DNA of 64,000 bases from Bacteroidota bacterium. Lineage in GTDB: Bacteria > Bacteroidota > Bacteroidia > UKL13-3. The stretch spans positions 277,061 to 341,060 of the forward strand of contig JAIYAT010000010.1 of assembly GCA_027488905.1 (NCBI GenBank), in the 5' to 3' direction. The notes below the pieces were generated by a model. That model saw nothing but the letters and a program-made list of their open reading frames with translations. It made no database searches and was not told the DNA's origin. Each line of letters starts with the position of its first letter. Position 1 is the stretch's first letter. Positions 21,869 to 39,139 of this stretch are shown piece by piece. Made by a program: the position numbers and the translations under genes.

Positions 21869-21884
21869 GGTTCGTTCTTTTTCT

Positions 21885-22118
21885 CTATCGAAGTTTAACA
21901 TATTTTCCTTTAAGTGAGTTTTCCGAAACGTATTCTAATGGTGTGTCTCCATTTGCTGTTGCTAATCAATGTTCTAAGAAGTCTTTTGTTAATTGTATGT
22001 CCCAACCCGCACAAGCCGCTGCTATACCATAACGAGGGTCGGCATAATCAGTTTCATAGTCTTTATGTTTATGTAAGTTCCAAGTAAGTTTAATGAGTTC
22101 TTTGATAATGATGAGTGC
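21885..22118 (-). pseudogene. Decayed cassette gene of unknown function (in-frame stop)
   Basis: On the minus strand a frame reads IIIKELIKLTWNLHKHKDYE, TDYADPRYGIAAACAGWDIQ, LTKDFLEH, a TGA stop, then LATANGDTPLEYVSENSLKG, KYVKLR and stop at 21885-21887. AAACAGWD and NGDTPLEYV recall ankyrin-like repeat proteins, but I cannot name a family. No start codon context remains. An IS remnant truncates its 5' side. Confidence 0.5.
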
Positions 22119-22290
22119 ACTAACTTATAACCTCAAAAAATACTTAAACTTCAACCGAAAAAAAGCAGAAACTGCTTGCCGAAATAAGTTCAACACATGG
22201 GAAGCATTTTTTTCTTTTGAATGGCTTGTCTCAAAAGCCATTTTAGTGCTATTTAAGACACCCAGTTTTAACACTAAATTACACTAAATA
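22099..22290 (+). pseudogene. C-terminal remnant of an IS transposase
   Basis: The frame MSALTYNLKKYLNFNRKKAE matches the end of DDE transposases of the IS1182-like type, which close with an x-x-A-x-x-YNLKK(Y/L)L segment. Only the tail is present; no catalytic residues. It lies on the opposite strand to the surrounding cassette genes. Confidence 0.5.
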
Positions 22291-22379
22291 AAAAAATTAA
22301 ATGCGCTTAAATCGAAGATAAACAGGTCTATTTTTAGGAAAAAGAACTTGGTTTTTAAAGTTTGAAAGAAGTTGTGCAA

Positions 22380-22395
22380 CAGCTACCCGTGTTAG
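22380..22395. repeat. Right half of an attC-like site
   Basis: CAGCTACCCGTGTTAGC sits directly at the 3' end of the GNAT gene (stop at 22392). It has the GTTAGC end of the other sites; its left arm is missing, apparently removed by IS insertions or deletion. Confidence 0.35.
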
Positions 22396-22976
22396 CAAAC
22401 ATTCTTTTTCATAAGAAAGACTTTCAATTTTAAAGCATTTGATTTTATTATTTTGTAAGTATTAAACCCAAATCGAGAAAATACATGAACGTTTTTGAGT
22501 AATGTAGTCTCGGCAAAAACCGGTAAATTTGCTTCATTCGCAATACTAAGTAATTCATTAACAAATTTTGTGTTAGATATCACATTACTATTTTTCGACC
22601 CCAAAAACCAAAAATGATAATATTTGCTTTTTCTAGGTTTTGAATCTTTTATTTTCTTTAAATGAAAACATATAGATAATATTTTATTAATTCTAACTCC
22701 AGTCAATATTAGTTTAATTAAATACCATTTTTCCATTATCCCACCTTTGACTGTCGAGTTTATAAAAAATGCTACACAGGATCTATCGTCCGATAGATAT
22801 ATACCTTGACGAGCTAATGAATAATGAAATGTATATTCGAGAATAGGGCGAATATCAATTTTTTCATGTTTTACTTTAGATAAGCTTATCATTGTTGGGT
22901 TAGATTCAAAAGCAACCTCCAGAATTTTAAGAATATGTTCTTTATCAGCTAAGGACGATAAAACCATAATTTTCAA
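22392..22976 (-). CDS. GNAT-like N-acetyltransferase
   Basis: 194 residues with the outline of a GNAT enzyme: FAFESNP-like start, HFWFLGSKNSNVISNTKFVN in place of the acetyl-CoA loop, then LLSIANEANLPVFAETT and FSRFGFNTYKII, the last strands of the fold. The normal Q/R-x-x-G-x-G/A loop is not evident (SNVISNTKF), so catalysis is uncertain. The gene begins three bases after the desaturase stop, so both form a two-gene unit. Substrate unknown. Confidence 0.55.
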   Translation of the reverse strand: MKIMVLSSLADKEHILKILEVAFESNPTMISLSKVKHEKIDIRPILEYTFHYSLARQGIYLSDDRSCVAFFINSTVKGGIMEKWYLIKLILTGVRINKILSICFHLKKIKDSKPRKSKYYHFWFLGSKNSNVISNTKFVNELLSIANEANLPVFAETTLLKNVHVFSRFGFNTYKIIKSNALKLKVFLMKKNVC

Positions 22977-22979
22977 TCT

Positions 22980-24050
22980 TTAATTATTATTCTTTGAATA
23001 AATTACCAACCTTTTAAAATGAGATCTAATACACACAAATAAGTTAGGATAACATACAAATGGTAAATTATTTTGAACACAATACTCCTCAATAAGCTGA
23101 GTGATTTTTGGGTACAAGACGTACGGTACATTAGGAAATAAATGATGTGCCAGATGATGGTTAAATCCTCCGAAAAAATGTAGTACAAATCTTGATTTTA
23201 TATTAAAGCTTCCTGAAGTTCTTATTTGATGTTCTATCCAGGAGTATGGCAAATTAGTTTGAGTATCTATATCTACTAATTCATGATCTTCACCTATATG
23301 AGTGCTAACCAATACCAAAGTCGTTGTTAAACTAGCTGAAAAATGAAATACAAAAAAACCTAAAATTGCCATTGACATACTTTGTCCTAATAAAACAGGA
23401 ATAAAAATTAAAAAAGAAAGGTGCCAGCACTTACTTGCAAACAACCAAAGTATATTGGAGAAAGCATGTGATTTTATATACTTGTTTCCAAATTTATTTT
23501 TTTTAATATCTTTAAAATCACGTAAAAAGAACCAGTTTAGTGTGTACATAGTAAACAAAATTGGCATATAGTAAGCCTGAAATGAATGAATTTTTCGCCA
23601 TTTCTGATTATTATTTAAACGAATGAGTTCAGACTGTTCAATATCCAAATCCCATTTTTTGATGTTTGTATAATGATGGTGGGCATTTAGATGTCTTAGT
23701 TTCCAGAAATAAGGACTAGTACCTAAAAAGTAAAATACACCTTGTCCAATTTTGTTTATTCTTTTTCCATTACTAAAATTTCCATGAATTGATTCATGTC
23801 CAATAACCAAAATAAGGGGTACACTAATTATGCCCAAAAAAACAATGGTAAATAAATAATAAATTGAATTATAATTAAATTGCCATAAAAACAAAATGGC
23901 AATCAAAAATGTCAAAAATATTAATCCACCAATAATTAATTGAGACTGATTAATCTTTTTATGATCTGCATTTTGATAAATGTGTTCGACCATCTTTCTA
24001 AGATTGTCAAAACTTTCTTCCTTTACTTTTTCTCTAAATCTTAATTTCAT
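22980..24050 (-). CDS. Membrane fatty acid desaturase
   Basis: 356 residues. Three histidine clusters for the di-iron site are present: HESIHG (85-90), HLNAHHH (120-126) and HHLAHHLFPNVPY near residue 310. Four hydrophobic segments lie between them, as in acyl-lipid desaturases. It would introduce a double bond into acyl chains and needs an outside electron donor (ferredoxin or cytochrome b5), none adjacent. Paired with a GNAT-like gene and bracketed by two direct copies of a 130-base IS/attC repeat, which suggests it was acquired. Confidence 0.85.
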   Translation of the reverse strand: MKLRFREKVKEESFDNLRKMVEHIYQNADHKKINQSQLIIGGLIFLTFLIAILFLWQFNYNSIYYLFTIVFLGIISVPLILVIGHESIHGNFSNGKRINKIGQGVFYFLGTSPYFWKLRHLNAHHHYTNIKKWDLDIEQSELIRLNNNQKWRKIHSFQAYYMPILFTMYTLNWFFLRDFKDIKKNKFGNKYIKSHAFSNILWLFASKCWHLSFLIFIPVLLGQSMSMAILGFFVFHFSASLTTTLVLVSTHIGEDHELVDIDTQTNLPYSWIEHQIRTSGSFNIKSRFVLHFFGGFNHHLAHHLFPNVPYVLYPKITQLIEEYCVQNNLPFVCYPNLFVCIRSHFKRLVIYSKNNN

Positions 24051-24061
24051 ACTTGAATGTT

Positions 24062-24504
24062 TGCCAACGTCGGCGTGTGAAAAAACCTCTCCACACTGTT
24101 TAGCGTAAAATTATTGAAAAGTGTGTGATTAAGCAAGTGGCTTTGTATTTAAATTTGCTTCAACAAAAGAGGTATGAATTATATATTAGGAAGTAACCGA
24201 GGGCAGTTTGAGTTTAGTTGTTTAGAGGATGCGGTTGAGCAAGATAATCAGCACCATCAAAAGGAAGTGGGGATATAACCATACCAACTTAAAGGGATTA
24301 AAGAAAGTAAACGGAGAGTTTGCATTAATCATGACAGTTTACAACATCAAACGTTGCATAAACATACTAGGCCTTGAGAAATTAATGGAGGAAATTAATA
24401 ATTGGAAGCCTGATTATAAGGGGATGGCTTTGCTTTTGTTAAAAACAACCCATTTTAAAGCGATATCAAAGCATTTAATCATGGAAAGAAAAATGGCTGC
24501 ATAA
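24062..24504 (+). mobile_element. Internally deleted IS1182-like element (MITE-like), with repeat copy B at its left end
   Basis: The left end (24062-24194) repeats 20739-20869. A transposase frame begins at 24173, MNYILGSNRGQFEFSCLEDAVEQ, then at about 24250 jumps to another frame reading TIKRKWGYNHTNLKGLKKVN, GEFALIMTVYNIKRCINILG up to 24504. The last part is the C-terminal signature of IS1182-type transposases. All of the catalytic core is absent, so this is a non-autonomous relic. The right terminal repeat was not located. Confidence 0.65.
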
Positions 24505-24601
24505 TCATAACTCAAAAAATGAATGCGGCATATCGCTTTGTTATACTTCTTAGACCATCAAATCCAACCAATTTTCAACCAAAACTTAGTTTTTTCACAA
24601 C

Positions 24602-24742
24602 CTGACGTGTTGCAGCTTGGCGAAGTAAGGGAATGGTTACCTCAAATTTTGTCTCGTGCAGTTTACTTCAAAAATAAACTTTTCTGCCGTTTCTTTTTCC
24701 TTAAAAGCTTCAAGCCCTTATTGCAGCCAAACGCGTGTTACC
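24602..24742. repeat. attC-like imperfect palindrome (site 3)
   Basis: Left part TGACGTGTTGCAGCTTGGCG with GAAGTAAGGG pairs with the right part CCCTTATTGCAGCCAAACGC then GTGTTACC. Both arms share TTGGC and TAAGGG. The first core is TGAC instead of TAAC. It is a paralogue of site 1 (17545-17683). It lies 3' of the minus-strand gene 24789-25292. Confidence 0.5.
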
Positions 24743-24788
24743 TGCTGTTATTTTTTCTGTCGTATTAGATGTCCTGAATTTTAATTTA

Positions 24789-25292
24789 TTAATGTCCGCC
24801 AAGCGTCGGAAAAAAAAATTTGATAATATTTGTAAAGAGCATTAATCCAATTATCATTAATATTAACTGTCCTGTTTTTTTTGTCTTGAGTTGAAATGCA
24901 ATCAGAAATGATAATGCTGTCCCGAAGAACGAAACACCAATTGTACCAAGCAAAAAATAATAAATGTGGTCATGCAAAGTGTCTGCGATAAGAGTTGGTT
25001 GTCGCACCGTTTGAAAAATTACTTCTGAAGAAAAGCAAATTATTGTCCCCAAAAGTGTAAGCCTAGTTATGGTTGTCTCAGGTTGTAATTTAAGAAATTT
25101 CTTTTGAGCAAATATTAATATTGTTAACAGAAGTCCAACTAAAATTATGCCTTCAATTTTTATTGGTGTTTGAGGAATTTTGTCTGGAATGTCGAATGGT
25201 GAGAAAAAAATTATCCACCAAGATATGAGTTGTCCTGCCAATAATAGTAATATGAATTTTATAATTGTCGGTCTCATTTTGTTGTCGTGCAT
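24789..25292 (-). CDS. Small integral membrane protein of unknown function (cassette gene)
   Basis: 167 residues with four hydrophobic helices (FILLLLAGQLISWWIIFF, GIILVGLLLTILIFA, FLLGTIGVSFFGTALSFLIAF, LILMIIGLMLFTNIIKFFF). No motif I recognise. The start may be the ATG at 25292 or the one at 25277. It is flanked by attC-like palindromes at 24602-24742 and 25300-25429, so it looks like a single-gene cassette. Confidence 0.6.
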   Translation of the reverse strand: MHDNKMRPTIIKFILLLLAGQLISWWIIFFSPFDIPDKIPQTPIKIEGIILVGLLLTILIFAQKKFLKLQPETTITRLTLLGTIICFSSEVIFQTVRQPTLIADTLHDHIYYFLLGTIGVSFFGTALSFLIAFQLKTKKTGQLILMIIGLMLFTNIIKFFFPTLGGH

Positions 25293-25299
25293 AATAGCA

Positions 25300-25429
25300 G
25301 GTAACGGTTGGCAGCTACAAGAAGTTGGCGATTTCGAAGCACAAAACTGTCTGCCAGCATTGAACTTGTTACGAAGTACAAAGCTTCATTTAACCACTGA
25401 ACCGCCAATTTCTTGTAGGTGCTGTTAGC
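25300..25429. repeat. attC-like imperfect palindrome (site 4)
   Basis: Left arm GGTAAC then GGTTGGCAGC, TACAAGAAGTTGGCG; the right arm read in reverse complement is GCTAAC, AGCACC, TACAAGAAATTGGCG. A 15-base stem (14 matches) with the left spacer four bases longer. It lies 3' of the GNAT gene 25482-25949. Confidence 0.65.
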
Positions 25430-25481
25430 GGTTGGCATTCTTTTCGTCCAATATTGTGTCGTTTGGTTTTGCATTGTCTTG

Positions 25482-25949
25482 TTACAATTCTTTTTTCATA
25501 ACAACGATGTCTTTACCACCCAATGCAAGTCGTTCCAGTTGTTGCCAGTCAAGTCGCTTGTATAAATTTTCTGCTGTATGAGTAAATAGATAAATTTCTT
25601 TAAGTCCCAGGTTTTTTGAATGGTTTTGAATGTGATTACAAATTAATGCTCCTAATCCTTTTCCTCTGTCGTCTGGTTTTGTATAAACTAATGCTAACCA
25701 GTTTTTGTAAATTTTAAGTCGTGGTTCTTTGTCCAGCAGTCCAACGTGGTTGTATAGTCCGCCTGTTGCAATTGGTTTGTTGTCCAGCGTCATTAAAACT
25801 TGAAACTCGTAATTGTCTGCCGAAAGTTTTTTTGTTTTTTCAATTGTGGTCTGAACGGGAATGTTCCACTCTGTTAAATACCAGTCCGCAATAAGTGCAA
25901 TATTTTCGTTGTCGTCAGGTGTAATTATTTGATATTTTATGTCTGTCAT
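25482..25949 (-). CDS. GNAT family N-acetyltransferase (cassette gene)
   Basis: 155 residues, normal GNAT length. The acetyl-CoA loop is seen in DDRGKGLGALICNHIQNHSK (R-G-x-G-L/I-G), followed by LGLKEIYLFTHTAENLYKRLDW, the last strand and helix. It most resembles small GNATs common in integron cassettes and mobile regions. Acyl acceptor unknown. Sites 4 and 5 flank it on the two sides. Confidence 0.85.
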   Translation of the reverse strand: MTDIKYQIITPDDNENIALIADWYLTEWNIPVQTTIEKTKKLSADNYEFQVLMTLDNKPIATGGLYNHVGLLDKEPRLKIYKNWLALVYTKPDDRGKGLGALICNHIQNHSKNLGLKEIYLFTHTAENLYKRLDWQQLERLALGGKDIVVMKKEL

Positions 25950-25990
25950 AATTTACAATGTCTGTTGAAGTGTGGTCGTCTATGCTTACC

Positions 25991-26118
25991 GCTAACGTTC
26001 CTGCGCACTAACGCAGGCCGGGTTTAGAAAGATTAATTGTCCGGCTAAGATAATTTTTTAAGGACTCATATGCTCCGGTCTGCCAATTCAGCCCGGCTTG
26101 AGCCAGTGCGCTGTTAGC
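25991..26118. repeat. attC-like imperfect palindrome (site 5)
   Basis: Left arm GCTAAC, GTTCCT, GCGCACT, ..., GCCGGG; right arm in reverse complement GCTAAC, A, GCGCACT, ..., GCCGGG. Perfect six-base core pairs, seven- and six-base stems, left spacer five bases longer. It separates the GNAT and the YwqK-like genes. Confidence 0.7.
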
Positions 26119-26123
26119 CGCAG

Positions 26124-27002
26124 TTATTTCAGTCGCTTCATTTTCCATTTATCGTTTTTATTCCAATACTCAATGGATTTGACCTTTCCAAACTCGTTAT
26201 AATCCAGTGTTACACCTCCTCCTACAAAACGCATTAATTTCCCCTGTCGGTTGGTAATTGTGGTTGAAATAATATTACCCCTAATATCCGAGGTCGTTTG
26301 TATTGTGCAATCCCCACAGAAACTATAATAGCTCTGAGTCGTGTCAAAGTTAATATCATATGCAAAGTCCTTTGTGAAATGAATGGATGAAACATCTTGC
26401 TCTTTCGTCCAGTGAGTCCTGAGAGAACTACTCTTCGCCTGTTCAAAAGTTTGTCCAACAGTCCCATCGTGGTAGTAAATGGTTTCTCTTATTAAGCCTC
26501 TCCTTTGGTGGTAAATGCTCTGCTTCCTTTTGATTCCTGTCGAATAGAACCAATTTTCATAAAAAAGTGAATCTTTATCAAAAGGCATTTTATAGGATTC
26601 GGGGCTAGCGGTAACATAGTCCCATGTTGGGCCCCACCACTGATAATAAATCCAGTTTCCGACCTTAAAAGTGGTGTCTGAATTTTTACGGTATGCTCCC
26701 GTTCGGAACGTCCATAAACTATCGTCTTTATATGTTCCAATAGTAAGGAAGTTGCCGTAGACGTTGTATTCTAAGAAGCAACCGCTAACCTTGTTGTCAA
26801 CTAAATTGAACGAGTAGTGAAGTTTCGCAGTGTCATTGTTAAAAAACACTTTCCATTTTCCGTTTGGTAGAACAGTCGGGATATCGTGTAAATCAATTGT
26901 ATCAAGAGCGAAAAATGTGTCGGTAGGAGAAGCAATCCTTTTGTATTTCTGTCCGAAAACAGAGAATGGGACTAAAGTCATTAAAATCAATAATCGCGTC
27001 AT
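26124..27002 (-). CDS. Exported protein with MORN/YwqK-like repeats (cassette gene)
   Basis: 292 residues with signal peptide (MTRLLILMTLVPFSVFG). The body has short repeats such as GKWKVFFNNDTAKLHYSF, GCFLEYNVYGNFLTIGTYKD and GQTFEQ that resemble the MORN_2 type repeats of the YwqK-like proteins. Members of that group can act as immunity proteins to toxins, but nothing here proves it. Flanked by attC-like sites at 25991-26118 and 27015-27144. Confidence 0.55.
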   Translation of the reverse strand: MTRLLILMTLVPFSVFGQKYKRIASPTDTFFALDTIDLHDIPTVLPNGKWKVFFNNDTAKLHYSFNLVDNKVSGCFLEYNVYGNFLTIGTYKDDSLWTFRTGAYRKNSDTTFKVGNWIYYQWWGPTWDYVTASPESYKMPFDKDSLFYENWFYSTGIKRKQSIYHQRRGLIRETIYYHDGTVGQTFEQAKSSSLRTHWTKEQDVSSIHFTKDFAYDINFDTTQSYYSFCGDCTIQTTSDIRGNIISTTITNRQGKLMRFVGGGVTLDYNEFGKVKSIEYWNKNDKWKMKRLK

Positions 27003-27014
27003 TTTATAATTTTG

Positions 27015-27144
27015 GCTAACGTTCCCACGCTTGGCGCAGTGGGGGATTTTGGAAAACTAAATTGTCAACCAGCACGAATTTACAATAGAAGCACAAACTT
27101 TCTATGAACGATGTTAGCCCCCATTGCGCCAAACGTGTGTTAGC
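27015..27144. repeat. attC-like imperfect palindrome (site 6, best example)
   Basis: Left arm GCTAAC, GTTCCCACGC, TTGGCGCAGTGGGGG; right arm in reverse complement GCTAAC, ACACGT, TTGGCGCAATGGGGG. The stem is 15 bases with one mismatch, the core pairs are perfect, and the left spacer is four bases longer. The centre (about 75 bases) does not pair well. Confidence 0.75.
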
Positions 27145-28048: not shown

Positions 28049-28294
28049 TGTATGTTCGTTTGTGTCGTTTTACTATTGGTGCTAACTCTTTTATATGCGA
28101 AGCAAAATACTAAATTAAGGTTAATTATTGTGTAATTGCCGATAGTAATTATCGTTTTATTGAAAGTTAGCAATTGATAAATTTAGGTTCAGAAATTAAA
28201 TACTTATGCAGTTTACCAATAGCGTTTCTCATCAACCCAAATTGCTTGATAAAGAAGATTTTAGCATCTATTCACTCTTGCTCTATACCTCTTA

Positions 28295-29952: not shown

Positions 29953-30031
29953 CTCAGACGCTACAATTTTCCGGTTAAAAATAACCACATTCACCTAGTT
30001 AAAAATCATTGTGGGCAAAGCAGTAAATAAA

Positions 30032-30607
30032 ATGAAGGTTGGTTTAGAGGACATCATACAATCCATTTATTTATTGCCTCAAGAAGTATTGGAAGATGTT
30101 TTGGCACAATTTCAACATTTGGAATATCCCAAAAACTATTTTTTATTGAAACCGGGCAAACCCTGTAAACACCTTTGGTTTATGACAAATGGTGCTGTAA
30201 GGTACTTTTACACCAATGACCAAGGAAAGGAAATGAACACTTGGTTTAGTTTAGACACTCAAATTATCACAGATGCTCCTAGCTTAGTAAATCAAACATT
30301 GGCTCAAGAGAGTATTCAACTAATAGAAGATAGTGAAATACATGCCATTGAATATACTTCAATACAAACATTACTTCAAAAGCATCATTCATTTGCCCTT
30401 TGGTATATTAAGTTGGTGGAAATGCATTATATAGCACAAATTGAGGATAGACTTTCAGATTTACAATTCCTTGATGCAACACAACGCTACCAAAAACTAT
30501 TAAACCTTTACCCAGACATTACCAATCGCATAAGTCTTGGAAACATTGCCTCCTACTTAAACATCACTCAAGAAACGCTGAGTAGAATTAGATCGGGCAA
30601 ACTCTAA
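30032..30607 (+). CDS. Crp/Fnr-family transcription regulator
   Basis: About 191 residues: cyclic-nucleotide-binding-like barrel (YFLLKPGKPCKHLWFMTNGAVRYF), a long dimer helix (ALWYIKLVEMHYIAQIEDRLSDLQF) and an HTH (RISLGNIASYLNITQETLSRIRSG). It has one cysteine only, so it is not an Fe-S FNR, and the cAMP-binding Arg/Glu pair is not evident. ATG at 30032 rather than GTG at 30011. A perfect FNR-type box lies between it and the following gene, making that gene its probable target. Confidence 0.85.
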   Translation: MKVGLEDIIQSIYLLPQEVLEDVLAQFQHLEYPKNYFLLKPGKPCKHLWFMTNGAVRYFYTNDQGKEMNTWFSLDTQIITDAPSLVNQTLAQESIQLIEDSEIHAIEYTSIQTLLQKHHSFALWYIKLVEMHYIAQIEDRLSDLQFLDATQRYQKLLNLYPDITNRISLGNIASYLNITQETLSRIRSGKL

Positions 30608-30614
30608 CCATTTT

Positions 30615-30628
30615 TTGATATACATCAA
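30615..30628. promoter_or_regulatory. FNR/DNR-type binding box
   Basis: TTGATATACATCAA is a perfect copy of TTGATnnnnATCAA. It sits 8 bases after the Crp/Fnr gene and 88 bases before the desaturase-reductase fusion gene; binding by that regulator is inferred. Confidence 0.6.
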
Positions 30629-30715
30629 ACCCCTTTTTGTTCTAAGTCAAAAGCTTTCATAACCATGCTTTGCAATTTTGCAGTGTAAATTATTACACTT
30701 TAAAATTGGCTCAAA

Positions 30716-32536
30716 ATGAATATTACAACATTTTTTGAAAACATTATTGCCGCATTTGGCGAACAGCTAAGCTGGTATGCAGGATTTGCATTTCCATTCT
30801 TTTTTATCTTTTGGATAGTAGGTAAGAAGTACTTTAAAAAGATAAGAATACAAGAAACTGAAAGAGCTAACCTGCATCATTTTAAACACGATTTAGGTTT
30901 TTCAACTAGTACCTTCCTGGTTTTTGCAATTTTTGATGTTTTTCTTCTTTATCTAGAAAGCAAAGGTTATACAAAAGTCTATTTCAATATCAATGACTTC
31001 GGCTACTTGTGGTTAGGTGTTAGTTTTTTTATTGTACTCTTTTTAGATGATATGTTTTTCTATTGGAGCCATAGGGCTATGCACTTGCCTCGTTTTTATA
31101 AATTCTTCCATAAGGTACATCACGAAAGTACCGATCCATCGCCACTAACTGCTTTTGCCTTCCATCCTTCGGAAGCAGTAATTGAACAAATGATGGGTTT
31201 CGTGTTACCATTTCTCATTCCACTAAATTTCGGCGTAATAATAGCTTGGCAAGTTTTCTCCATGCTCAACAATGTACTGGCACATTTAGGCTATGAAACC
31301 TATCCAAAAGGTTGGGTAAAATTCCCTTTGTTAAAATACAAAGTAGCTTCCACCCATCATAATATGCACCATCAATTGTTTAATGGCAATTATGCTTTAT
31401 ACTTTACTTGGTGGGATAAATGGATGGGCACCGAGTTTAAAGACTATGAAACCCGACACGAGCAAATTTTTGAAAGAAAGAATATCAAAAAATCGAGTAA
31501 AGGTTTGTATTTGCTAGAAGTTTCTGAGATTAGGCAAGAAGCAAATGAGGCCTTTACAATTCAGTTTGCTAATGTTCCATCTATCTTCAGAGATTTCTCA
31601 GCAGGGCAACATCTAACCATAAAGGTAAACATCAATGGGGAAATCTTGTATCGTACATTTTCAATTTCTTCGATACCAAATAAAGATAATTTTTTGACTT
31701 TGACCATCAAAAAGATTAAGGGAGGTAAGGCTACTAATTACTTGGCCGAGCATTTAAAAGTTGGAGATAGTTTAGAAGTTACTACACCATCTGGTCAATT
31801 TTATATTAATCCAGAACCAGCCAATCAAAAGCATTATTTAATGATTGCAGGTGGAAGTGGCATCACACCAATTTACAGCATGATAGGCACTATTTTAAAG
31901 TTTGAGCCTAAAAGCAAAATCACTTTGCTCTATGCTAACAGAACTTCAAACAGCATCATTTTCAAAGAAAAATTCGAACAATGGACAGCAGAATTTCCTG
32001 CTCAATTGGAAGTCAAACATTATTTGAGTGAAGAAGAAAATCCGCATAATGCTATCAGAGGTTATATTACGAGAATTTCGTTGGAAGAAATAGTAACCCA
32101 ACATGAGAAGAATAAAATAGATTTTTACCTCTGCGGTCCAGAAATAATGACGAACAAGCTTATTGAAGATTTGACTTATTTAGGAATAACAAAAGGCAAA
32201 ATTCATCGAGAGTTATTTATAATCACAACCCAAACACAAGAAAGTGTTTCACACAAAGCGCTAGTTTCTGCAAAACTATTTGGCAAAACCTATCAATTTG
32301 AAACCCAAGAAGGCAAAACCATTTTGCAAAGTGGCTTAGACCAAAACATACCTCTGCCTTTTTCTTGCCAAAGTGGACTATGCGGTATGTGCAAAATGAA
32401 ATGCACCGAGGGCAAGGTTAGGATGAAGAGTAATCAGGTGCTAACTGAAAAGGACCTAAAAGACGGTTATATACTTACCTGCCAATCGCTTCCTCAAACA
32501 CATGCAATTACCATTAAGCATTCCCAATCGTTATGA
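30716..32536 (+). CDS. Fusion of sterol-desaturase/fatty acid hydroxylase-like domain with FAD/NAD(P) and 2Fe-2S reductase
   Basis: 606 residues. The N-terminal half is a membrane di-iron hydroxylase (SHRAMH 118-123, FHKVHH 131-136, and STHHNMHHQLFNGNY near 220) with about five hydrophobic segments. From about 265 follows a PaaE-like reductase: FAD motif YRTFSISS near 310, NAD motif GGSGITP near 380, CGPEIM near 475, and a plant-type ferredoxin tail CQSGLCGMC near 550 with a further Cys. Normally these oxygenases take electrons from separate proteins; here donor and catalyst are one chain. Substrate unknown, probably a lipid. Preceded by an FNR-type box; followed by an overlapping gene. Confidence 0.85.
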   Translation: MNITTFFENIIAAFGEQLSWYAGFAFPFFFIFWIVGKKYFKKIRIQETERANLHHFKHDLGFSTSTFLVFAIFDVFLLYLESKGYTKVYFNINDFGYLWLGVSFFIVLFLDDMFFYWSHRAMHLPRFYKFFHKVHHESTDPSPLTAFAFHPSEAVIEQMMGFVLPFLIPLNFGVIIAWQVFSMLNNVLAHLGYETYPKGWVKFPLLKYKVASTHHNMHHQLFNGNYALYFTWWDKWMGTEFKDYETRHEQIFERKNIKKSSKGLYLLEVSEIRQEANEAFTIQFANVPSIFRDFSAGQHLTIKVNINGEILYRTFSISSIPNKDNFLTLTIKKIKGGKATNYLAEHLKVGDSLEVTTPSGQFYINPEPANQKHYLMIAGGSGITPIYSMIGTILKFEPKSKITLLYANRTSNSIIFKEKFEQWTAEFPAQLEVKHYLSEEENPHNAIRGYITRISLEEIVTQHEKNKIDFYLCGPEIMTNKLIEDLTYLGITKGKIHRELFIITTQTQESVSHKALVSAKLFGKTYQFETQEGKTILQSGLDQNIPLPFSCQSGLCGMCKMKCTEGKVRMKSNQVLTEKDLKDGYILTCQSLPQTHAITIKHSQSL

Positions 32537-33144
32537 GAAGGCTATTATTTATCACCCTATTCTTTATGCTTAACACAAGCATTCGTGCCCAAATTGTAGT
32601 TGAAGCCCTTACAGGAAATAAACAAGCACATTATATAAACTATATTGATAAAGATCTGGACAGTTCTGCAAAATGGAATTTCTTTAACCTTAATCGTTTT
32701 ACGGTAAACTACAAAGAAAGGGCATTAAATACAGTTTCTATGGAGGGGCAACTTACTTATCAATTCAAACCATGGTTAGGAATATCCGCAGGAGCTGGTT
32801 TTTATGGTGAGTTATTTGTTCCAACCATTGGGTTAAGTCTTTCTTACATGAATAAAAAAGAAGACTTTTTTATTCAAATGTACCCAACTATTGTTTTTGT
32901 TGAAGGACAGGTTGCACCAAGTGTTTTAGGGCTCATTGGGTATTCTCCACAATTCAGCAAAAGTTGGGGATTTTCCTCTCAAGCTATTTTTTCGGTTGAC
33001 CCTAATGAAGCATCTGAAATTATTAGAATTGGAGCTAACTACAAAAATTTGGTTCAGCTTGGACTAGGAATTGACATGCTTCAAAGCTTTCAAACAAAGA
33101 ATATAAACTTAAACTTTGGACCCTTTGTTAGATTCAACTTTTGA
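32533..33144 (+). CDS. Exported protein of unknown function, probable outer-membrane barrel
   Basis: 203 residues with signal peptide (MRRLLFITLFFMLNTSIRAQ). The rest alternates polar and hydrophobic residues as in barrel strands and ends GPFVRFNF, an aromatic final residue common in outer-membrane barrels. The ATG overlaps the stop of the fusion gene (ATGA at 32533-32536), so it belongs to its operon and may take part in the same lipid pathway. Its 3' end overlaps the convergent small gene by 36 bases. Confidence 0.6.
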   Translation: MRRLLFITLFFMLNTSIRAQIVVEALTGNKQAHYINYIDKDLDSSAKWNFFNLNRFTVNYKERALNTVSMEGQLTYQFKPWLGISAGAGFYGELFVPTIGLSLSYMNKKEDFFIQMYPTIVFVEGQVAPSVLGLIGYSPQFSKSWGFSSQAIFSVDPNEASEIIRIGANYKNLVQLGLGIDMLQSFQTKNINLNFGPFVRFNF

Positions 33145-33318
33145 TAGGCAAACTTTCTTATACCCATACACCGCACCTGCAACAATTAGCAATGATATGC
33201 CGCCATCTAAAGGCACATCATCTACATCATCCTCAAAGCCTGGTTGGGCATACAAGGAAATTGAACTTGCTAATAGTAAGCCGATGATTAGTATTTGAAT
33301 CTTAATGAATTTTTTCAT
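33109..33318 (-). CDS. Small exported protein with C-terminal PLDGG-hydrophobic-basic sorting-like tail
   Basis: 69 residues starting MKKFIKIQILIIGLLLASSI with a signal peptide, then an acidic linker (FEDDVDDV), PLDGGISLLIVAGAVYGYKK and a basic tail. A P-x-D-G-G motif, hydrophobic stretch and lysine/arginine end recur in short Bacteroidota proteins and are thought to be a protein-sorting signal. The ATG at 33318 is chosen over the longer frame, which runs into the ice-binding gene. It follows that gene on the same strand (20 bases after its stop). Confidence 0.65.
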   Translation of the reverse strand: MKKFIKIQILIIGLLLASSISLYAQPGFEDDVDDVPLDGGISLLIVAGAVYGYKKVCLSKVESNKGSKV

Positions 33319-33337
33319 GTTGAATTTGTTTATTGAA

Positions 33338-36300
33338 TTATTTGATAATTTTAATTGTTTGAATAGCATTAGCGCTAGCAACACGGATAAAGTAAACGCC
33401 ATTGCGCCATTCGCTTGTATTTAAGACACTCTTTTCTTCTGTGAATACTCCTTTTAGCATCTCTTCTCCTAACTGATTGAATAAAACATACTCAGCATTG
33501 TTGCTTCCGTTTAAATCAATGTAAAGCACATGTTCAACTGGATTTGGATAGGCAATAATGCCTTTTTGATTGGCCATTGTTGAAGTCAATCCTGTTGCTG
33601 ATTTTTTAAAGATTAGTTTGAACCTACCATCTTTTAATGAAGCGGAATCACTGATAATTTGAATAGGATAACTAAAGGCATTGCTTACTTGGGTGTTTGT
33701 TTTTAGGTAATTGTCTACTAAAAATATATCGTATTCCTTAAACGTACTTACCTCATTAAATATAAATGAATAGTTGGCCTCAACCGTTCCCATAATACTC
33801 AAAGCTATTTCTCTATCCTCACTAAGCGCTGGCAAACAATTGATGTTATACCTTTTATTGTCAATGCCTATGGAAGCAATATTCATGGAGGCGTTCACCA
33901 ATTTTGGCGCGTCAAAGTTATCTTGTCCTTCGGTGGCATCTTCTCTAAAATGAATAAACAATTCATCCGAATTACTGCTGTCATAGTTCAATTTAACCCT
34001 TAGGTGGTTAACCAAATTTGTTTTGAAAAACGCGCCACCTGCGCTGCTAACCTTATTGCTTTCTGAAATACTAATTGAACCATTTGTGCTTGGGTTCAAT
34101 ACTAAAAAGGCTTGACCCGAAGATATATACTGCGTAGCATTTCCTGTAGAGCCATTCCAGCTTACATATGCATTAATAGCAGGACTATAAACATAATAAG
34201 TGCCCGAAACATTTGTTTTAGTGATCGCATTCCAATCAATAGCACTTGGAAATGGATTGCCTACTAAATTAAAGCCACTGTTGGTAGTTGAACCTGTTTT
34301 GGTTGTATTGGTGGTAACCGTACTTGCCGGATAGCTTCCCGTAACGCTTATAGTGGTGGCATTTGGTGCAGGAATGGGTAAAGTTACTAAACTGATTGTT
34401 CTATCGCCCCTCACCAAAACCCTAAACCCTACGCCGTTAGTTAAAGGGGTTGTGTTACCATCGGTGAAAGCCTCCCAACCCGCATCAATAGCTGCGCCAT
34501 GTCCAACGGTAGTACTCGAGCCGGCATTTGCCTCATTGTACCCAAAGGCAGAAGGATTATGTGTTAGTGAAAGGTCGAAATTACTACCCACCCCTGTAAT
34601 TTGAATACCTACACCGGGTGTATTAACGCCATTATTTCTCCAATTAACAGACGTTGCACCTACCACTGGTGAGGTCAAAAACCTAAACTTTCTAGCCGTT
34701 GCAGGTAAGTATCGTTCTGCAGCAAGATTTCCTGAAATTGTTGCGCCATTTGTATTTCCAATATAAGCTGTTCCGCTTGAAGTTGATTTAAGCGTAAGAA
34801 AGTCACCAGTGGTCAATGTCTTTGTGCCAGCAGCATTAAAAGAAATACTACCTGTTGGCGATAGGTTCAAAACGTTACCTAAAGTTAAACTTGCATTACT
34901 GCCTGTGCCTATGGTTAAATGTTGAAGCACATTCGTAGTGCCAGGCGCAGCTTGGTCAAATAAAAGTGTCCCTACATTTGTTCCAATACTTAAATTGCTT
35001 GTAGCAGAACCACTAACCGCACCGCCAGAATTGGTAACTGCGCCATTGATAGTAAGAGTGGCGCTCGGAGCAATGTTTATTTTGCCTGCCAACACGATAT
35101 CGTTTGTACTTTGGTTTACATTGGCATTAAATATTCCTCCGTTGTCAATTTGATATTTGGCTCCTGTTGCCACAGTAATGGCATGATTGCCCGTTAATAT
35201 TCCGCCACTTTCTATTTGTAGGGTTGAACCAACTGCACCAAATGAAAAGGGAGCACTTGTGGTTAGGTTATGCCCATTTTGTATAACATAACTCGTAACA
35301 AAGGTAAAGTTTGTAGGAGCTGCGCCAGAGCCATCTGCTTGCCAATTCCAATTGCTTAAGGTAGCGGGGTTGCCACTTGCTTGCGAGTAAATTTTAGTAC
35401 CATTGGCATAGGCATTCACATTGGCTATGTTAACTGCGCCAACAGTTGAGAAGGCTCTGCCATCTAGGGTTGAGCCTGCTGCAAAAGAAATTGCACCATT
35501 ATTGGCAATAACATATCCTCTAAAGATGGCATTACTTGCTACGCTAACGGCACCATTTACCAACCAATATACATTGCTAGACTTAGCTCCATTTATTAAA
35601 ACTACATTGGCATATGTGCTAGTGGTTAAAGCGCCAAATATTCTAATCACAAAAACAGCATTTGCGTTTCCTTGTGCATTCAGAAATAGGGTATCCGTAA
35701 AAGTAGTAGCAGCATTTAATAAGTAGGTATGTGGGGTTAGCACAAGGTTTGAACCAAATTGAGCAGGATAAAGTAGTTCAATGTCATAAGTTAAGCCATT
35801 TAAATGACCATAAACATCGGCTAAATCGGCGGCACAAGCAGCAGTAGAATCATCTGGAACAGCATGAATAGTACCATTCACCAACAAAGGGTCAAAACCC
35901 GTTGTGAGTCCACTATTGGTTCCAACATCACCAATTATATTGGTTGTACCTGTATTGGTAACAGGTCCGGAGGCTGAGAAAAATGTAAATTGAGCGGTGC
36001 TGGCCATATTAGGTGCTGTAGGTCCGTTTAGGGTAGGGCTTCCACAGCCAATAGGGGTATAAACCATTACGTTATTAACAGAAATAGCTCCTGTGGTAGA
36101 AAGGGCTCTTCCTTCTAAGGTATCACCAGTACTCATGCTAATAGCGGCATTATTGGCAATAACAGTTCCACATATGTAAGTTCCTGTTGCCATAGTAATA
36201 GCACCATCCACTTTCCAAAAAACATTGCAGGCTAAGGCACCATTAATAAGATTTACTTTGGAATTTGCATTCGTACCCAAGGTTCCATTAATTTTAATAA

Positions 36301-36724
36301 TAAAAACTGCATTTGGATTTCCTTGCGCATTTAAATACAAGGAAGAACTAAGGGTAGCATTTGAAGAAATATAGTGTACCCCAGCAGTTAAAGTGTCATC
36401 GTTGCCTAAAGAAGTGGAAGGGAAAAAAGTATTAGTAGCGCTTGCTAGTTCGCTCGTTAAAGTAAGTAAATCGGCAGCGGCAGTTGCGGTTACCGCATTC
36501 TGAGAACGCATTACACCGTTCACATTACCAAAGTTCGAAGCAGCCCCAACATTAGAACCAATGTCTCCAGTAATTTGAGAAATCCCAACATTGGTAACAG
36601 CTCCAGAATTTGTAAACAGGGCAAAATTTACGGTAGAACCTAATGACGGAGTTTGTCCATAACTCAATGAATTGGCACAAACCATTGCAACAAGGAAGGT
36701 AAACTTAGTTAAAGTTATTTTCAT
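33338..36724 (-). CDS. T9SS-exported adhesin-like protein with two ice-binding (DUF3494) domains
   Basis: 1,128 residues. Signal peptide, then two DUF3494 ice-binding domains in tandem: about 25-225 (NFALFTNSGAVTNVGISQI, GDIGSNVGAASNFG) and about 240-445 (FTFFSASGPVTNTGTTNI, GDVGTNSG), each ending in a VFVIRI / NVYWLVNGA set and AINNANVNAY-like strand. Next a long beta-rich region of low-complexity Thr/Asn/Ser, an unknown domain near 660-950, and a C-terminal T9SS sorting domain from about 1055 (IIAYPNPVEHVLYIDLNG, GVYFIRVA, IKIIK). It should be secreted and bound to the cell surface. Ice binding itself is inferred; such domains also serve in adhesion. Confidence 0.88.
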   Translation of the reverse strand: MKITLTKFTFLVAMVCANSLSYGQTPSLGSTVNFALFTNSGAVTNVGISQITGDIGSNVGAASNFGNVNGVMRSQNAVTATAAADLLTLTSELASATNTFFPSTSLGNDDTLTAGVHYISSNATLSSSLYLNAQGNPNAVFIIKINGTLGTNANSKVNLINGALACNVFWKVDGAITMATGTYICGTVIANNAAISMSTGDTLEGRALSTTGAISVNNVMVYTPIGCGSPTLNGPTAPNMASTAQFTFFSASGPVTNTGTTNIIGDVGTNSGLTTGFDPLLVNGTIHAVPDDSTAACAADLADVYGHLNGLTYDIELLYPAQFGSNLVLTPHTYLLNAATTFTDTLFLNAQGNANAVFVIRIFGALTTSTYANVVLINGAKSSNVYWLVNGAVSVASNAIFRGYVIANNGAISFAAGSTLDGRAFSTVGAVNIANVNAYANGTKIYSQASGNPATLSNWNWQADGSGAAPTNFTFVTSYVIQNGHNLTTSAPFSFGAVGSTLQIESGGILTGNHAITVATGAKYQIDNGGIFNANVNQSTNDIVLAGKINIAPSATLTINGAVTNSGGAVSGSATSNLSIGTNVGTLLFDQAAPGTTNVLQHLTIGTGSNASLTLGNVLNLSPTGSISFNAAGTKTLTTGDFLTLKSTSSGTAYIGNTNGATISGNLAAERYLPATARKFRFLTSPVVGATSVNWRNNGVNTPGVGIQITGVGSNFDLSLTHNPSAFGYNEANAGSSTTVGHGAAIDAGWEAFTDGNTTPLTNGVGFRVLVRGDRTISLVTLPIPAPNATTISVTGSYPASTVTTNTTKTGSTTNSGFNLVGNPFPSAIDWNAITKTNVSGTYYVYSPAINAYVSWNGSTGNATQYISSGQAFLVLNPSTNGSISISESNKVSSAGGAFFKTNLVNHLRVKLNYDSSNSDELFIHFREDATEGQDNFDAPKLVNASMNIASIGIDNKRYNINCLPALSEDREIALSIMGTVEANYSFIFNEVSTFKEYDIFLVDNYLKTNTQVSNAFSYPIQIISDSASLKDGRFKLIFKKSATGLTSTMANQKGIIAYPNPVEHVLYIDLNGSNNAEYVLFNQLGEEMLKGVFTEEKSVLNTSEWRNGVYFIRVASANAIQTIKIIK

Positions 36725-36923
36725 AAAAGAACATTTAAAGTGAATAAATTTTCACACTTCAAAGTTGCTTTTATAAAAGTCCCTAAGTATTACATTGCAC
36801 GAATCATTTCATACATAAATCTCACTTTCTCAAAGCATACAAATGCGTTAAACACTAAGTTTCATTTGCATTACTATAACGCTTTTGCTATAATTCAAAG
36901 GAAGGCGGGAGAAACTGCACAAA

Positions 36924-36979
36924 GGCATGCTACTCGCAGGGTTCCTGAGGTGAATGAAGTGGTTGCAGAGCGTTTATAA
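36924..36979 (+). pseudogene. Remnant of a second nfu gene, 3' end only
   Basis: The last 15 codons read TR, VPEV, EVVAE and L as in the nfu gene at 29896-29952 (12 of 15 residues identical) and share its GGCATGCT beginning; one base is missing. Nothing else of the protein is left. It suggests an old duplication, now truncated by the ice-binding gene side. Confidence 0.65.
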
Positions 36980-37004
36980 ATAAAGATTGTTTAAGGATGC
37001 ACCC

Positions 37005-37331
37005 TTAAGGAAGTTTAATAAAACTATCTTCTAACCTTACCTTAAAATTTATTTCTGCTTTTAGGGCCTTAAAAACCTTCAAAATGGTATCAATGGTAGC
37101 ACTATTGGCGCTGCTTTCAAGTTTTGAAATCTGCGCCTTTTGAACACCAATAAGTTTTCCAAGGTCGTCCTGAGTCATGTTTCTTTCTATTCTGGCGGCT
37201 TTAATCATTCTTCCTAGCACATCCATGCGAAGTTCGTACTCATATTCGTCACGTGGTTTTGAGCCTACCTTACCTATATACTTGTCTTTCATTTCCTCAA
37301 GACTGTAGGTCTTTAAATTTTTGCTTGCCAT
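37005..37331 (-). CDS. XRE-family antitoxin of a HigBA-like pair
   Basis: 108 residues with a Cro/C1-type HTH: MTQDDLGKLIGVQKAQISKLESS near residues 53-75 and SATIDTILKVFKALKAEINFKV after it. It lies 12 bases downstream of the toxin gene, the inverted order of HigBA systems. It should bind the toxin and repress the operon. Confidence 0.8.
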   Translation of the reverse strand: MASKNLKTYSLEEMKDKYIGKVGSKPRDEYEYELRMDVLGRMIKAARIERNMTQDDLGKLIGVQKAQISKLESSANSATIDTILKVFKALKAEINFKVRLEDSFIKLP

Positions 37332-37343
37332 ATCCCGTAGTTT

Positions 37344-37676
37344 TTATTTTCCATTAAAATATTGAGTTCTAAGGTTCATTGCTCTTTTTATTTCTTTTGA
37401 GGGTATTTTATCTGCTTTTTTAATGAAACCATGCGTTGCAATGACAAGAGTTTCTGATTCCTCATAATTATCCCAAAACGCAAGAACACGTATTTGTAAT
37501 CCTGCACTTCTTGTGCGAAACTCCCAAATCTCATTTTGAAGCTTCTTAAACAGTTTTGGGTCATTTGTTTGCTCAGCTAAGTCAATGTTATAAAATATTT
37601 TTTTAATTACCTTAGGGTCAAGTTGCGAAATGAAATCATCCGCTTCTTGTAAAAATTTGGTTGCAAAGTATCTCAT
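37344..37676 (-). CDS. RelE/HigB-like toxin (phage-derived Gp49-like type)
   Basis: 110 residues. The pattern FLQEADDFISQLDPKVIKKI, LFKKLQNEIWEFRTRSAGLQ, IRVLAFWDN and LVIATHGFIKKADKIPSKEI is that of the Gp49-like HigB toxins, whose W-E-(F/L)-R-...-R-(V/I/L) and G-F-x-K-K-x-x-K-(T/I)-P elements are conserved. It would cut mRNA on the ribosome when freed from antitoxin. It precedes the XRE antitoxin. Confidence 0.8.
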   Translation of the reverse strand: MRYFATKFLQEADDFISQLDPKVIKKIFYNIDLAEQTNDPKLFKKLQNEIWEFRTRSAGLQIRVLAFWDNYEESETLVIATHGFIKKADKIPSKEIKRAMNLRTQYFNGK

Positions 37677-38029
37677 TTGCGCTTCAAATATATGATTATG
37701 TTTCCAAAAATAGAAACAATCTTCTTGTTGGAATTAATGTTTTTTGTCCAATTGTTTTCTATTGATATTATAAAAAACAAACTGGTTTCAATAAGAAACT
37801 GCAGATGTAATGGTGTATCAATTCTTCCAGCTTTGGTGATACTCTGGTTTATCATATTTTCTTAAATTATTTTGCTTGAGATTTTCAATGGCAAAATAAT
37901 TAAGGATAAGTCATTGAGAATAGGCTTTATAAACCTTTTTCCAGTAAGTAGGATAGCCCCAAAGGCCATAAAAGCAAAATCTCAGCAAATAAGATTGAAG
38001 TTTGCAGTGTAAAAAAAAGCTTTACTTAA
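37677..38029. other. Gene-free stretch upstream of the HigBA-like pair
   Basis: No protein of recognisable kind in either strand; small frames present overlap each other antisense. A weak inverted repeat (GCTTGAGATTTTC near 37873 against GCAAAATCTCAGC near 37976) may act as a terminator for the WG-repeat gene, but this is slight. Confidence 0.35.
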
Positions 38030-39139
38030 TTACAACTTAGGTAAAAGTTCACCGCGTTTGTTTACATATAGGTTGAGGTCTCTATAGATAACCTCAGCTA
38101 TACCATTTTCAAAAATGCCTACATTGTCAAATTCAAAGGGTACCAATATCTTTCCTTGTAAGTCTATCGCGCCCCATTTGCCTTTTACCTTTACTGGGCA
38201 AACGCCTTCGTTAAAATAGCCTACAGCCTCAAAGTAAGGTTGGTAAATATAGTTGCCCTTTGCATCAATGAAAGCCCATTTTCCCATGTATAAAACTCCA
38301 GCTCTACCTGCAGAAAATGGGCGTACATCATCATATAAAGGCTGAATTACCAACTCACCGCTGGTATTGATAAAACCTAACTTACCTTGAATTTCTACCG
38401 CAGCTAAGCCTTCATTAAATGGCATCGCATAATCATACGTAGCAGCAATGAGTTCTTTGCCATCCTTATTGATATATCCAAATTTACCCATGGCGTTTAC
38501 CACTGCAATGTCTTCGTTAAATGCACTGATCATTTGATAACTTGGTTCAAGCCTTACCTTGCTGCTGCTGTCTATTAAGCCAAATTTTGTGCCTTGCATA
38601 AAGCGCGAAACACCCTCTTCAAAGTCATCACAATCGTCAAAATCAAAGCCTGTAGCCATGCTGCCATCCTTGCGCATATAGCCAAACATGTACCCTAAAT
38701 TGCTAATATCAAACCCAAACTTGTTTTGAACAATGTCTACTTTCTTGCCAACCCTAGCCAATCCTTTATAAAATGGTCGTGCATCATATATTTCAATTGG
38801 CAAGCTCAATGCTACCACACCTTTGTTGTTCAAGTAGAATCTTCTGAATTTATAATCCATTGCTGATACCAATCCTTCCGAGTACATTCCAATAAACTGA
38901 TAAATTCCAGTATCTATGATTCTTTTTTCATTCACATCTATCAAGCAAGGCATGTTGCCTAAAGCCACCGATGCATACCCTTCGTTGAACTTTTGCGCAA
39001 GGTCATACTTAAAGTCTATCACCATTTTACCGCTTTCGTCCATGTAACCCCACTTGCCTTTTTTCTCAACAGGAAAAAGTTTTTGTGCGTTTAGATTAAC
39101 TGTCCACATTAAACACACCAATAACCATAGTTTTTGCAT
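38030..39139 (-). CDS. Exported WG-repeat protein
   Basis: About 369 residues with signal peptide (MQKLWLLVCLMWTVNLNAQ). It consists of about nine WG repeats (GKWGYMDESGKMVIDFKYD, GKFGYINKDGKELIAATYD, GKWAFIDAKGNYIYQPYFEA and others), beta-hairpins of about 45 residues forming an elongated scaffold of unknown role. The ATG at 39139 gives the proper signal peptide; it precedes the divergent GTG start of recG by 36 bases. Confidence 0.85.
   Translation of the reverse strand: MQKLWLLVCLMWTVNLNAQKLFPVEKKGKWGYMDESGKMVIDFKYDLAQKFNEGYASVALGNMPCLIDVNEKRIIDTGIYQFIGMYSEGLVSAMDYKFRRFYLNNKGVVALSLPIEIYDARPFYKGLARVGKKVDIVQNKFGFDISNLGYMFGYMRKDGSMATGFDFDDCDDFEEGVSRFMQGTKFGLIDSSSKVRLEPSYQMISAFNEDIAVVNAMGKFGYINKDGKELIAATYDYAMPFNEGLAAVEIQGKLGFINTSGELVIQPLYDDVRPFSAGRAGVLYMGKWAFIDAKGNYIYQPYFEAVGYFNEGVCPVKVKGKWGAIDLQGKILVPFEFDNVGIFENGIAEVIYRDLNLYVNKRGELLPKL

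Follow-up and report, generated by a model that had tools for sequence, protein, structure and literature searches.

A probable mobile three-gene unit with its own Crp/Fnr-type regulator encodes a fused membrane hydroxylase in Bacteroidota

We analyzed a stretch of 64,000 nucleotides (the window) from a Bacteroidota bacterium. It includes a gene for a membrane hydroxylase that is fused to its own reductase and ferredoxin. This gene is probably part of a horizontally transferred, self-regulated unit of three genes, which is an integron cassette in some relatives. By comparison of sequences, the unit has a Crp/Fnr-type regulator just before tandem TTGATnTACATCAA operators, and these are followed by a predicted Bacteroidota-type promoter, the hydroxylase, and a putative outer-membrane barrel.

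Borders and distribution of the unit

The sequence-only reading of this DNA had described a pair of genes, the regulator and the hydroxylase. These two do adjoin, but the pair is too small a unit, as it is part of a mobile cassette of three genes. DNA similarity between genomes extends from 2 bases before the ATG of the regulator as far as the third gene's stop codon (30030-33146, plus strand). Within these borders are the regulator, the fusion, and the barrel (30032-33144). The third gene (32533-33144), the sharp borders of the DNA similarity, and a second operator box are additions to the earlier picture.

To find relatives, we scanned 84,980 species genomes and obtained 68 loci, 24 of which (L004-L027) are close relatives. 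These are scattered across Bacteroidota, mostly from freshwater, and also include the betaproteobacterium Formosimonas limnophila (L016; 48% identity, without the regulator). Metagenome assemblies supplied many of the loci, and three (L007, L008, and L010) come from one assembly, which probably contains mixed strains. In the Bacteroidota loci, the regulator, the box, and the hydroxylase nearly always come in that order, usually with the 203-amino-acid third gene as well, so the regulator's place beside the hydroxylase is not peculiar to the window. The order is conserved in about 24 loci from the Cyclobacteriaceae, Flavobacteriaceae, Saprospiraceae, Chitinophagaceae, Cryomorphaceae, Flammeovirgaceae, and other families. 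The carriers include two cultured strains, Cognataquiflexum aquatile Z0201 and Flavobacterium aurantiibacter TH167.

Most loci have 75-80% DNA identity over the 3.1 kb of the unit, and the most distant ones have 66-73%. In the same genomes, Nfu, which is encoded beside the unit in the window, has 44-54% protein identity. Within the genus, 3 of 19 genomes contain the unit and 16 do not. For instance, in the same-genus genome G009, whose Nfu is 96% identical, the sequence runs from the end of nfu (29957) straight to window position 38030, and 29957-38030 is missing. Another genome, G005, has an ice-binding-like gene and no cassette at the window's site; it has the unit elsewhere, with the hydroxylase and ferredoxin domains but without the reductase. 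Because the identity of the unit far exceeds that of Nfu, the families are mixed in the phylogenetic tree, and the site is empty in G009, we attribute this distribution to horizontal transfer. The sequences indicate that the unit has moved as one piece between bacterial families.

We found no match to the unit in 72,556 plasmids or in viral contigs, which speaks against carriage by a plasmid or phage. We also rejected the idea that the ~8-kb insertion is a transposon, as it has no convincing terminal repeats. A 16-bp repeat (30674 and 37998) resembles shared promoter sequence.

The stretch that is absent from G009 contains other genes. Next to the unit, on the minus strand (33338-36724), is a gene for a secreted protein of 1128 amino acids, in which two stretches are ice-binding-like (PF11999) and the tail is of the Por secretion type. 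Also on the minus strand, at 37005-37676, are two small genes that resemble a HigB/HigA-type toxin-antitoxin pair. In L006, a partial copy (7517-7747) of a dehydrogenase gene that is upstream of the unit (3437-4138) lies after the unit, as if the insertion had duplicated part of its target.

The fused hydroxylase

The second gene (30716-32536, plus strand) encodes a protein of 606 amino acids. A single chain with a membrane di-iron hydroxylase, a PaaE-type reductase, and a ferredoxin had been proposed for it, and we found all four of the Pfam domains in this order and well over their cut-offs. These are FA_hydroxylase (PF04116, or FAH; amino acids 105-239, 31028-31432; 96 bits versus a cut-off of 31), FAD_binding_6 (amino acids 293-363, 31592-31804), NAD_binding_1 (amino acids 376-480, 31841-32155), and, at the C terminus, the 2Fe-2S ferredoxin domain Fer2 (amino acids 523-594, 32282-32497). 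Eight histidines (H119, H123, H132, H135, H136, H215, H218, and H219) form the pattern HX3H, HX2HH, HX2HH and are invariant in the relatives, which also keep the 2Fe-2S motif CX4CX2C...C. The reductase half has the FAD, NAD, and C-terminal 2Fe-2S domains of the PaaE type. The best NCBIfam match of the fusion is TIGR02160 (PaaE), with 265.1 bits versus a curated cut-off of 420.8, so the reductase part is PaaE-like and is not a true PaaE.

Because of the conserved histidines and the redox chain, the most reasonable reading is that the enzyme uses NAD(P)H and O2 to hydroxylate or desaturate a membrane-soluble substrate. Structure did not narrow down the substrate: among the matches listed, all of the fold matches are to the reductase half, and a profile search found no solved relative of the hydroxylase domain. 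In the predicted model of the fusion, confidence is low for the ferredoxin part (pLDDT about 31-58).

The fusion is a single chain in at least 12 other loci, with 60-85% protein identity, and no relative splits the two parts into adjacent genes. The domain order thus held up across genomes. However, it had been suggested that the oxygenase is self-sufficient, and this is not constant. The full FAH+FAD/NAD+Fer2 form is found in the window and in L004-L016. In the same clade, there are relatives with FAH+Fer2 (L017, L022-L025, and L027; L183 has this form as well) or with FAH alone (L018-L021), some with reductase remnants. In L017 and L018-L021, the joint after FAH retains the final residues of the NAD domain (e.g., SLTVSE-RELFLI in L018), which implies that the reductase was lost in frame. 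Because these close relatives keep the regulator, the box, and the hydroxylase without FAD/NAD, or without both FAD/NAD and the ferredoxin, the reductase is evidently dispensable. In the phylogenetic tree of the hydroxylase, the three forms are intermixed, as are the bacterial families. The basal branches are mixed, so the tree does not decide whether the full fusion or FAH+Fer2 is ancestral.

The fused reductases of the cassettes and of Formosimonas form one clade, separate from 39 stand-alone PaaE-like reductases that we sampled in the phylum. Judging by this tree, the fused reductase has a single origin, Formosimonas included. We also found a more distant fusion, FAH-FAD-NAD without Fer2, in G314 (L086). 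In L013 (68% identity in FAH), the hydroxylase half branches elsewhere than the reductase half, which groups within the main clade; this suggests recombination between cassettes at the domain border.

Some relatives of FA_hydroxylase are fused to, or directly followed by, DUF2147 (L029:4917-6515, L031:4863-6254, L007:6824-7240, and L008:6814-7230), which might be a functional partner. A literature search found neither a fusion of FAH with a ferredoxin reductase nor a link between DUF2147 and desaturases.

The third gene

The start of the third gene (32533-33144, plus strand) overlaps the stop codon of the fusion gene. It encodes a protein of 203 amino acids with a signal peptide and a predicted 12-strand outer-membrane beta-barrel. 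The model has a pLDDT of 87, and its best fold match is PcoB (7pge, E = 9e-5), with matches to NanC/KdgM-type 12-strand barrels as well. We found no match to its sequence in Pfam, PDB, or NCBIfam. Our attempt to identify its function thus yielded a 12-strand barrel from the fold search and nothing from the sequence searches. The gene is missing from some of the relatives (L013 and L022-L025). In L007, a second, partial barrel gene (10716-10964) lies 2.6 kb behind the unit, and the similarity extends slightly beyond its stop codon.

The modeled barrel would be compatible with the handling of envelope lipids or with uptake. Because it fits both, a catabolic role stays in play: the fusion might be a catabolic or detoxifying oxygenase for a hydrophobic compound from outside, which the barrel would admit, the fusion would hydroxylate, and the Crp/Fnr protein would sense. 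There are precedents for the parts of this scheme. AlkL and XylN admit the substrates of alkane and xylene oxygenases, and CprK senses the compound itself. The patchy, accessory distribution of the unit, its dedicated single-target regulator, and the presence of an outer-membrane barrel in the operon are all in keeping with catabolism. Also, some copies (L004, L006, L018, and L008) have short-chain dehydrogenases or hydrolases nearby. But these neighbors are inconstant and lie outside the conserved 3.1 kb, and the unit itself has no further degradation genes. We consider a catabolic role possible but somewhat unlikely.

The regulator and its operators

The regulator gene (30032-30607, plus strand) is just upstream of the fusion and encodes 191 amino acids from the ATG, or 198 from a possible upstream GTG at 30011. 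The protein has a cNMP-binding-type domain. As the sequence-only reading had stated, it is a Crp/Fnr-type regulator without Fe-S cysteines: it has one cysteine, and the cysteine cluster of the Fe-S O2 sensor FNR is absent. Of 395 genomes of the class, 4 have an ortholog (E < 1e-50), in each case beside a hydroxylase of the fusion's family.

The recognition helix, ITQETLSRIR, is FNR-like (ExxSR). E-TLSR is kept in every regulator but the one from L006, where G replaces E. In FNR, the ExxSR residues of the helix read TTGAT. The regulator thus combines an ExxSR helix with a TTGATN4ATCAA operator, as expected for DNA recognition of the FNR/DNR type. The helix accounts for the DNA site and not for the signal, and the "redox-type control" that had been suggested is unsupported.

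The distal operator, TTGATATACATCAA (30615-30628), is the perfect box that had been noticed before the start of the fusion gene. There are 87 bases between it and the ATG, and it is the sole perfect TTGATN4ATCAA in the window. The proximal operator, TTGTTCTAAGTCAA (30637-30650), is exactly 22 bp downstream; it is degenerate in the window and perfect in relatives that have a single box. Further downstream is CAATTTTGC (30673-30681, plus strand), an element of the TAnnTTTGC type that is conserved across 25 promoters. We take it to be the Bacteroidota -7 element, and we predicted the transcription start, near 30685, from it. If so, the center of the proximal site would be at about -41.5, which is the position of a class II activator.

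A scan of the window for boxes with up to one mismatch gave 6 sites versus 6.5 expected, so a lone box is not significant. The significance of the box comes from its conservation in the 25 homologous promoters. All 25 of these related promoters have the operator, usually as a pair 22 bp apart, so the expectation that it would recur in other genomes was borne out in every homologous promoter that we found. The proximal site is present in all 25, with 96-100% conservation of its half-sites TTG and TCAA, and the distal site is present in most. In the -7 region, TTT and G are conserved at 88-100%, and cAAtTTTGCAG is conserved 42-46 bp upstream of the ATG in most of the 25 units. The mean conservation is 0.95 for the proximal half-sites, 0.89 for the -7 region, and 0.63 for the remainder. 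In L008, a rearrangement has placed 2.7 kb of other genes between the regulator and the hydroxylase; a copy of the operator-promoter region precedes each of two target genes, and the second copy is behind a remnant of the 3' end of the regulator gene.

It is very improbable that the regulator and the hydroxylase are ordinary, vertically inherited neighbors with a palindrome between them by chance. The lack of any excess of one-mismatch boxes in the window is what such a chance box would predict, but the 25-promoter footprint with its fixed spacing rules it out. Vertical inheritance does not fit with the absence of the unit from 16 of the 19 same-genus genomes or with its sharing by other families at identities far above that of Nfu.

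We also considered whether the regulator controls a genome-wide regulon and rejected this. The whole genome contains just two perfect boxes, and most of the one-mismatch sites are inside genes, which makes a single-target regulator more likely. The other perfect box has a different Crp/Fnr gene on one side and, on the other, two small genes for membrane proteins.

These data also bear on the idea that the unit remodels membrane lipids in response to O2 or NO. The regulator would be a haem- or gas-sensing relative of DNR, and the enzyme would be made when O2 or NO changes. In favor of this, the helix has ExxSR and the box is of the FNR/DNR type, the solved relatives of the regulator include DNR, and enzymes of the FA_hydroxylase family use O2. 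On the other hand, the regulator has no Fe-S cysteines, and its closest solved relative (3dn7) is an uncharacterized Crp-like protein. Also, the genome's other perfect box is beside its own regulator in a cassette and not beside respiratory genes. The invariant HH118-119 are at most suggestive. We view control by O2 or NO as unlikely.

Cassette ends

The 5' core of an integron cassette is complementary to the start of that cassette's own attC (PMC8618304, PMC11014356). In L015, the unit has GTTATGCGTA at its 5' end, and its 3' end is TACGCATAAC plus a 126-base stem-loop element that ends in GTTA. L010 has the same ends, with more attC sequence on the 5' side. In both loci, GTTATGCGTA, the 5' core, and TACGCATAAC, the end of the unit's own attC, are complementary at 10 of 10 bases. 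L009 has the same end; its core has one unreadable base (all 7 readable bases match), and its attC is truncated. L004 has a weak attC directly behind the third gene.

Matching at all 6 variable bases was not seen in any of 2000 random placements. Among 16 cassettes, a core and its own attC match at 5.5 of 6 variable positions, versus 2.1 for other pairs (0/100000 permutations). For 64 neighboring pairs, nearly all of which are from other Bacteroidota genomes, the values are 4.8 and 2.3 (0/20000). Because our covariance model of attC was built partly from sites in the window and in L015/L232, the scores of those sites are partly circular; the complementarity tests are unaffected. A search of Rfam gave no known RNA family for the attC-like element. 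The array in L015 contains a DUF805 RNA motif (RF03081; 9696-9765) between two attC sites, and so inside another cassette.

With a 3' attC whose R'' is complementary to its own core, the unit in L015 and L010 is, by its sequence, a genuine integron-type cassette. Both ends are intact in just 2 of the roughly 24 units, so other routes may have spread most of the copies. The window copy does not have the ends of a cassette: even with filters off, we found no attC near 29957 or 33144. As this copy has no attC and is outside an array, we infer its arrival as a cassette from its relatives. Its own attC has presumably been lost.

The many copies without attC, and the approximately 22 of 24 without complete cassette ends, might be explained if a plasmid, phage, transposon, or other element carries the unit and inserted by accident beside an attC in L015 and L010. 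But accidental insertion would not produce the 10-base complementarity of core and attC in these two loci, and the search of plasmids and viral contigs (above) found no such carrier. We consider this explanation quite unlikely, and we favor transfer as an integron-type cassette, at least for some of the copies.

Integron-like arrays in the window and across the phylum

The window's copy of the unit lies beside nfu and about 2 kb from an array of attC-like sites on the minus strand (21740-27142, with a core that extends to 28086). Three of the five sites are members of the model's own alignment: 27017-27142 (120 bits, E = 4e-24), 25302-25427 (115 bits, E = 5e-23), and 21740-21866 (79 bits, E = 4e-15). 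The other two are outside that alignment: 25993-26116 (56 bits, E = 3e-10) and the weaker 24603-24740 (30 bits, E = 1e-4). At the weaker site, the R'' AGCAGGTAAC and the preceding core GTTACCTGCT are exactly complementary. For the window's nearest integron-type cassette, the 5' core site is GTTAGCACCA (28077-28086, minus strand), which is the exact complement of the R'' of the attC at 27017-27142.

This genome has additional attC arrays in C17, C19, C23, and C32. The array in C17 is headed by an integrase gene (L227:3919-4950), which is followed in the same direction by four attC sites with one ORF each. The best family for this integrase is that of the integron integrases (TIGR02249), at 223.1 bits versus the required 265. 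It does not have the IntI-specific insertion (profile positions about 182-239 are largely missing), so it is not an IntI by the curated definition. Homologs with 41-44% identity head arrays in two other genomes.

Some of these cassettes resemble the unit. The genome's second FA_hydroxylase (at 54.5 kb in C23) is in a cassette with exact ends, GTTAGGCACA and TGTGCCTAAC, and with a Crp/Fnr gene first. A third cassette, in C32, has a Crp/Fnr gene first and then a perfect box, TTGATTTACATCAA; its ends match at 9 of 10 bases. The arrays of C19 and C32 contain three further Crp/Fnr-type genes. Because Crp/Fnr-first cassettes are found repeatedly, the regulator-first multi-gene cassette looks like a recurrent design. 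The fused-hydroxylase unit looks like one of these Crp-headed cassettes, of which the same genome has at least two more with both ends defined.

Among 247 sampled Bacteroidota genomes, 109 had at least one raw match to the attC model at E ≤ 1e-6. We also observed long same-strand attC arrays in seven other Bacteroidota genomes (L236-L247), two with an integrase homolog at the head. The array at the end of contig 1 of G225 is about 70 kb, and the one in G096 is about 30 kb.

We tentatively suggest that Bacteroidota harbor a widespread and little-recognized integron-like system, with attC-like arrays and an IntI-related recombinase that lacks the insertion, and that it circulates multi-gene, Crp-headed cassettes with their own operators and promoter. 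This is close to an even call.

A proposed mechanism

We propose that the regulator, upon a signal, would bind the proximal box at about -41.5 and activate transcription in the class II manner. Where there is a distal box 22 bp upstream, it would bind this as well. RNA polymerase would then transcribe the hydroxylase and barrel genes together. In the enzyme, electrons would pass from NAD(P)H to FAD, to the 2Fe-2S cluster, and to the di-iron site, where O2 would be used to oxidize, within the inner membrane, a lipid-like substrate. At the outer membrane, the barrel would handle this substrate or its product. In relatives that lack the reductase, the hydroxylase may draw electrons from a reductase of the host, as many members of the phylum have PaaE-like reductases. 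In all of this, the binding, the signal, the substrate, and the activities of the unit's parts are deduced from sequence.

Comparison to known systems

The closest analog of the fusion is ferr_ferrR_AlkB, an alkane monooxygenase that is fused to ferredoxin and ferredoxin reductase and was shown to be active, according to PMC8918992, which cites Nie 2014 and Williams 2021. Both proteins have a membrane di-iron oxygenase, a ferredoxin reductase, and a ferredoxin in one chain. AlkB is the oxygenase in ferr_ferrR_AlkB and has the electron-transfer modules on its N-terminal side, whereas the window's fusion has FA_hydroxylase (PF04116) as its oxygenase and carries these modules, including a PaaE-like reductase, on the C-terminal side. 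That review has no report of desaturases fused to ferredoxin, and for fused fatty-acid hydroxylases it cites cytochrome b5 (PMC8918992). The fusion shares the FAD-NAD-Fer2 order with PaaE and other class IA reductases. In contrast to PaaE, its reductase follows a membrane hydroxylase in one chain, scores below the cut-off, and belongs to a clade of its own. The stand-alone sterol desaturases and fatty acid hydroxylases of Bacteroidota and Sphingomonadales have the same catalytic domain (30-40% identity). Unlike the window's enzyme, they have no fused reductase and mostly no adjacent regulator or box; some are fused to or beside DUF2147.

Like FNR and DNR, the window's regulator has an ExxSR helix, an TTGATNNNNATCAA-type operator, and, by our prediction, a class II position. 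In contrast to them, it has no Fe-S cysteines, is probably single-target, and is encoded within the mobile unit that it would control.

The arrays described here share with integron cassettes the core site, an attC whose R'' complements the 5' core of the same cassette, and a position behind an IntI-like integrase (PMC8618304, PMC11014356). A typical integron cassette has one promoterless gene (PMC11014356), whereas the unit, at about 3.1 kb, has three genes, one of them for a transcription factor, together with a promoter and the operators of this factor. Bacteroidota are listed among the phyla with integrons (PMC8618304), and complete integrons in Bacteroidetes have been reported almost only from Salinibacter ruber (PMC9024848). 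Because complete integrons are reported to be nearly absent from Bacteroidota, the attC-like arrays in many of their genomes merit separate study.

The fusion is a testable case of a membrane oxygenase in the FA_hydroxylase family that supplies its own electrons. The natural series of full fusion, ferredoxin only, and bare hydroxylase allows one to ask what the fused reductase adds. Cassettes rarely bring their own regulation, and units like the window's do so in some genomes. With the regulator, the operator pair, and the target operon in a 3.1-kb cassette, a distant bacterium could gain a regulated trait in one step. If Crp-headed cassettes do circulate among the Bacteroidota, then a captured cassette would arrive together with its regulation.
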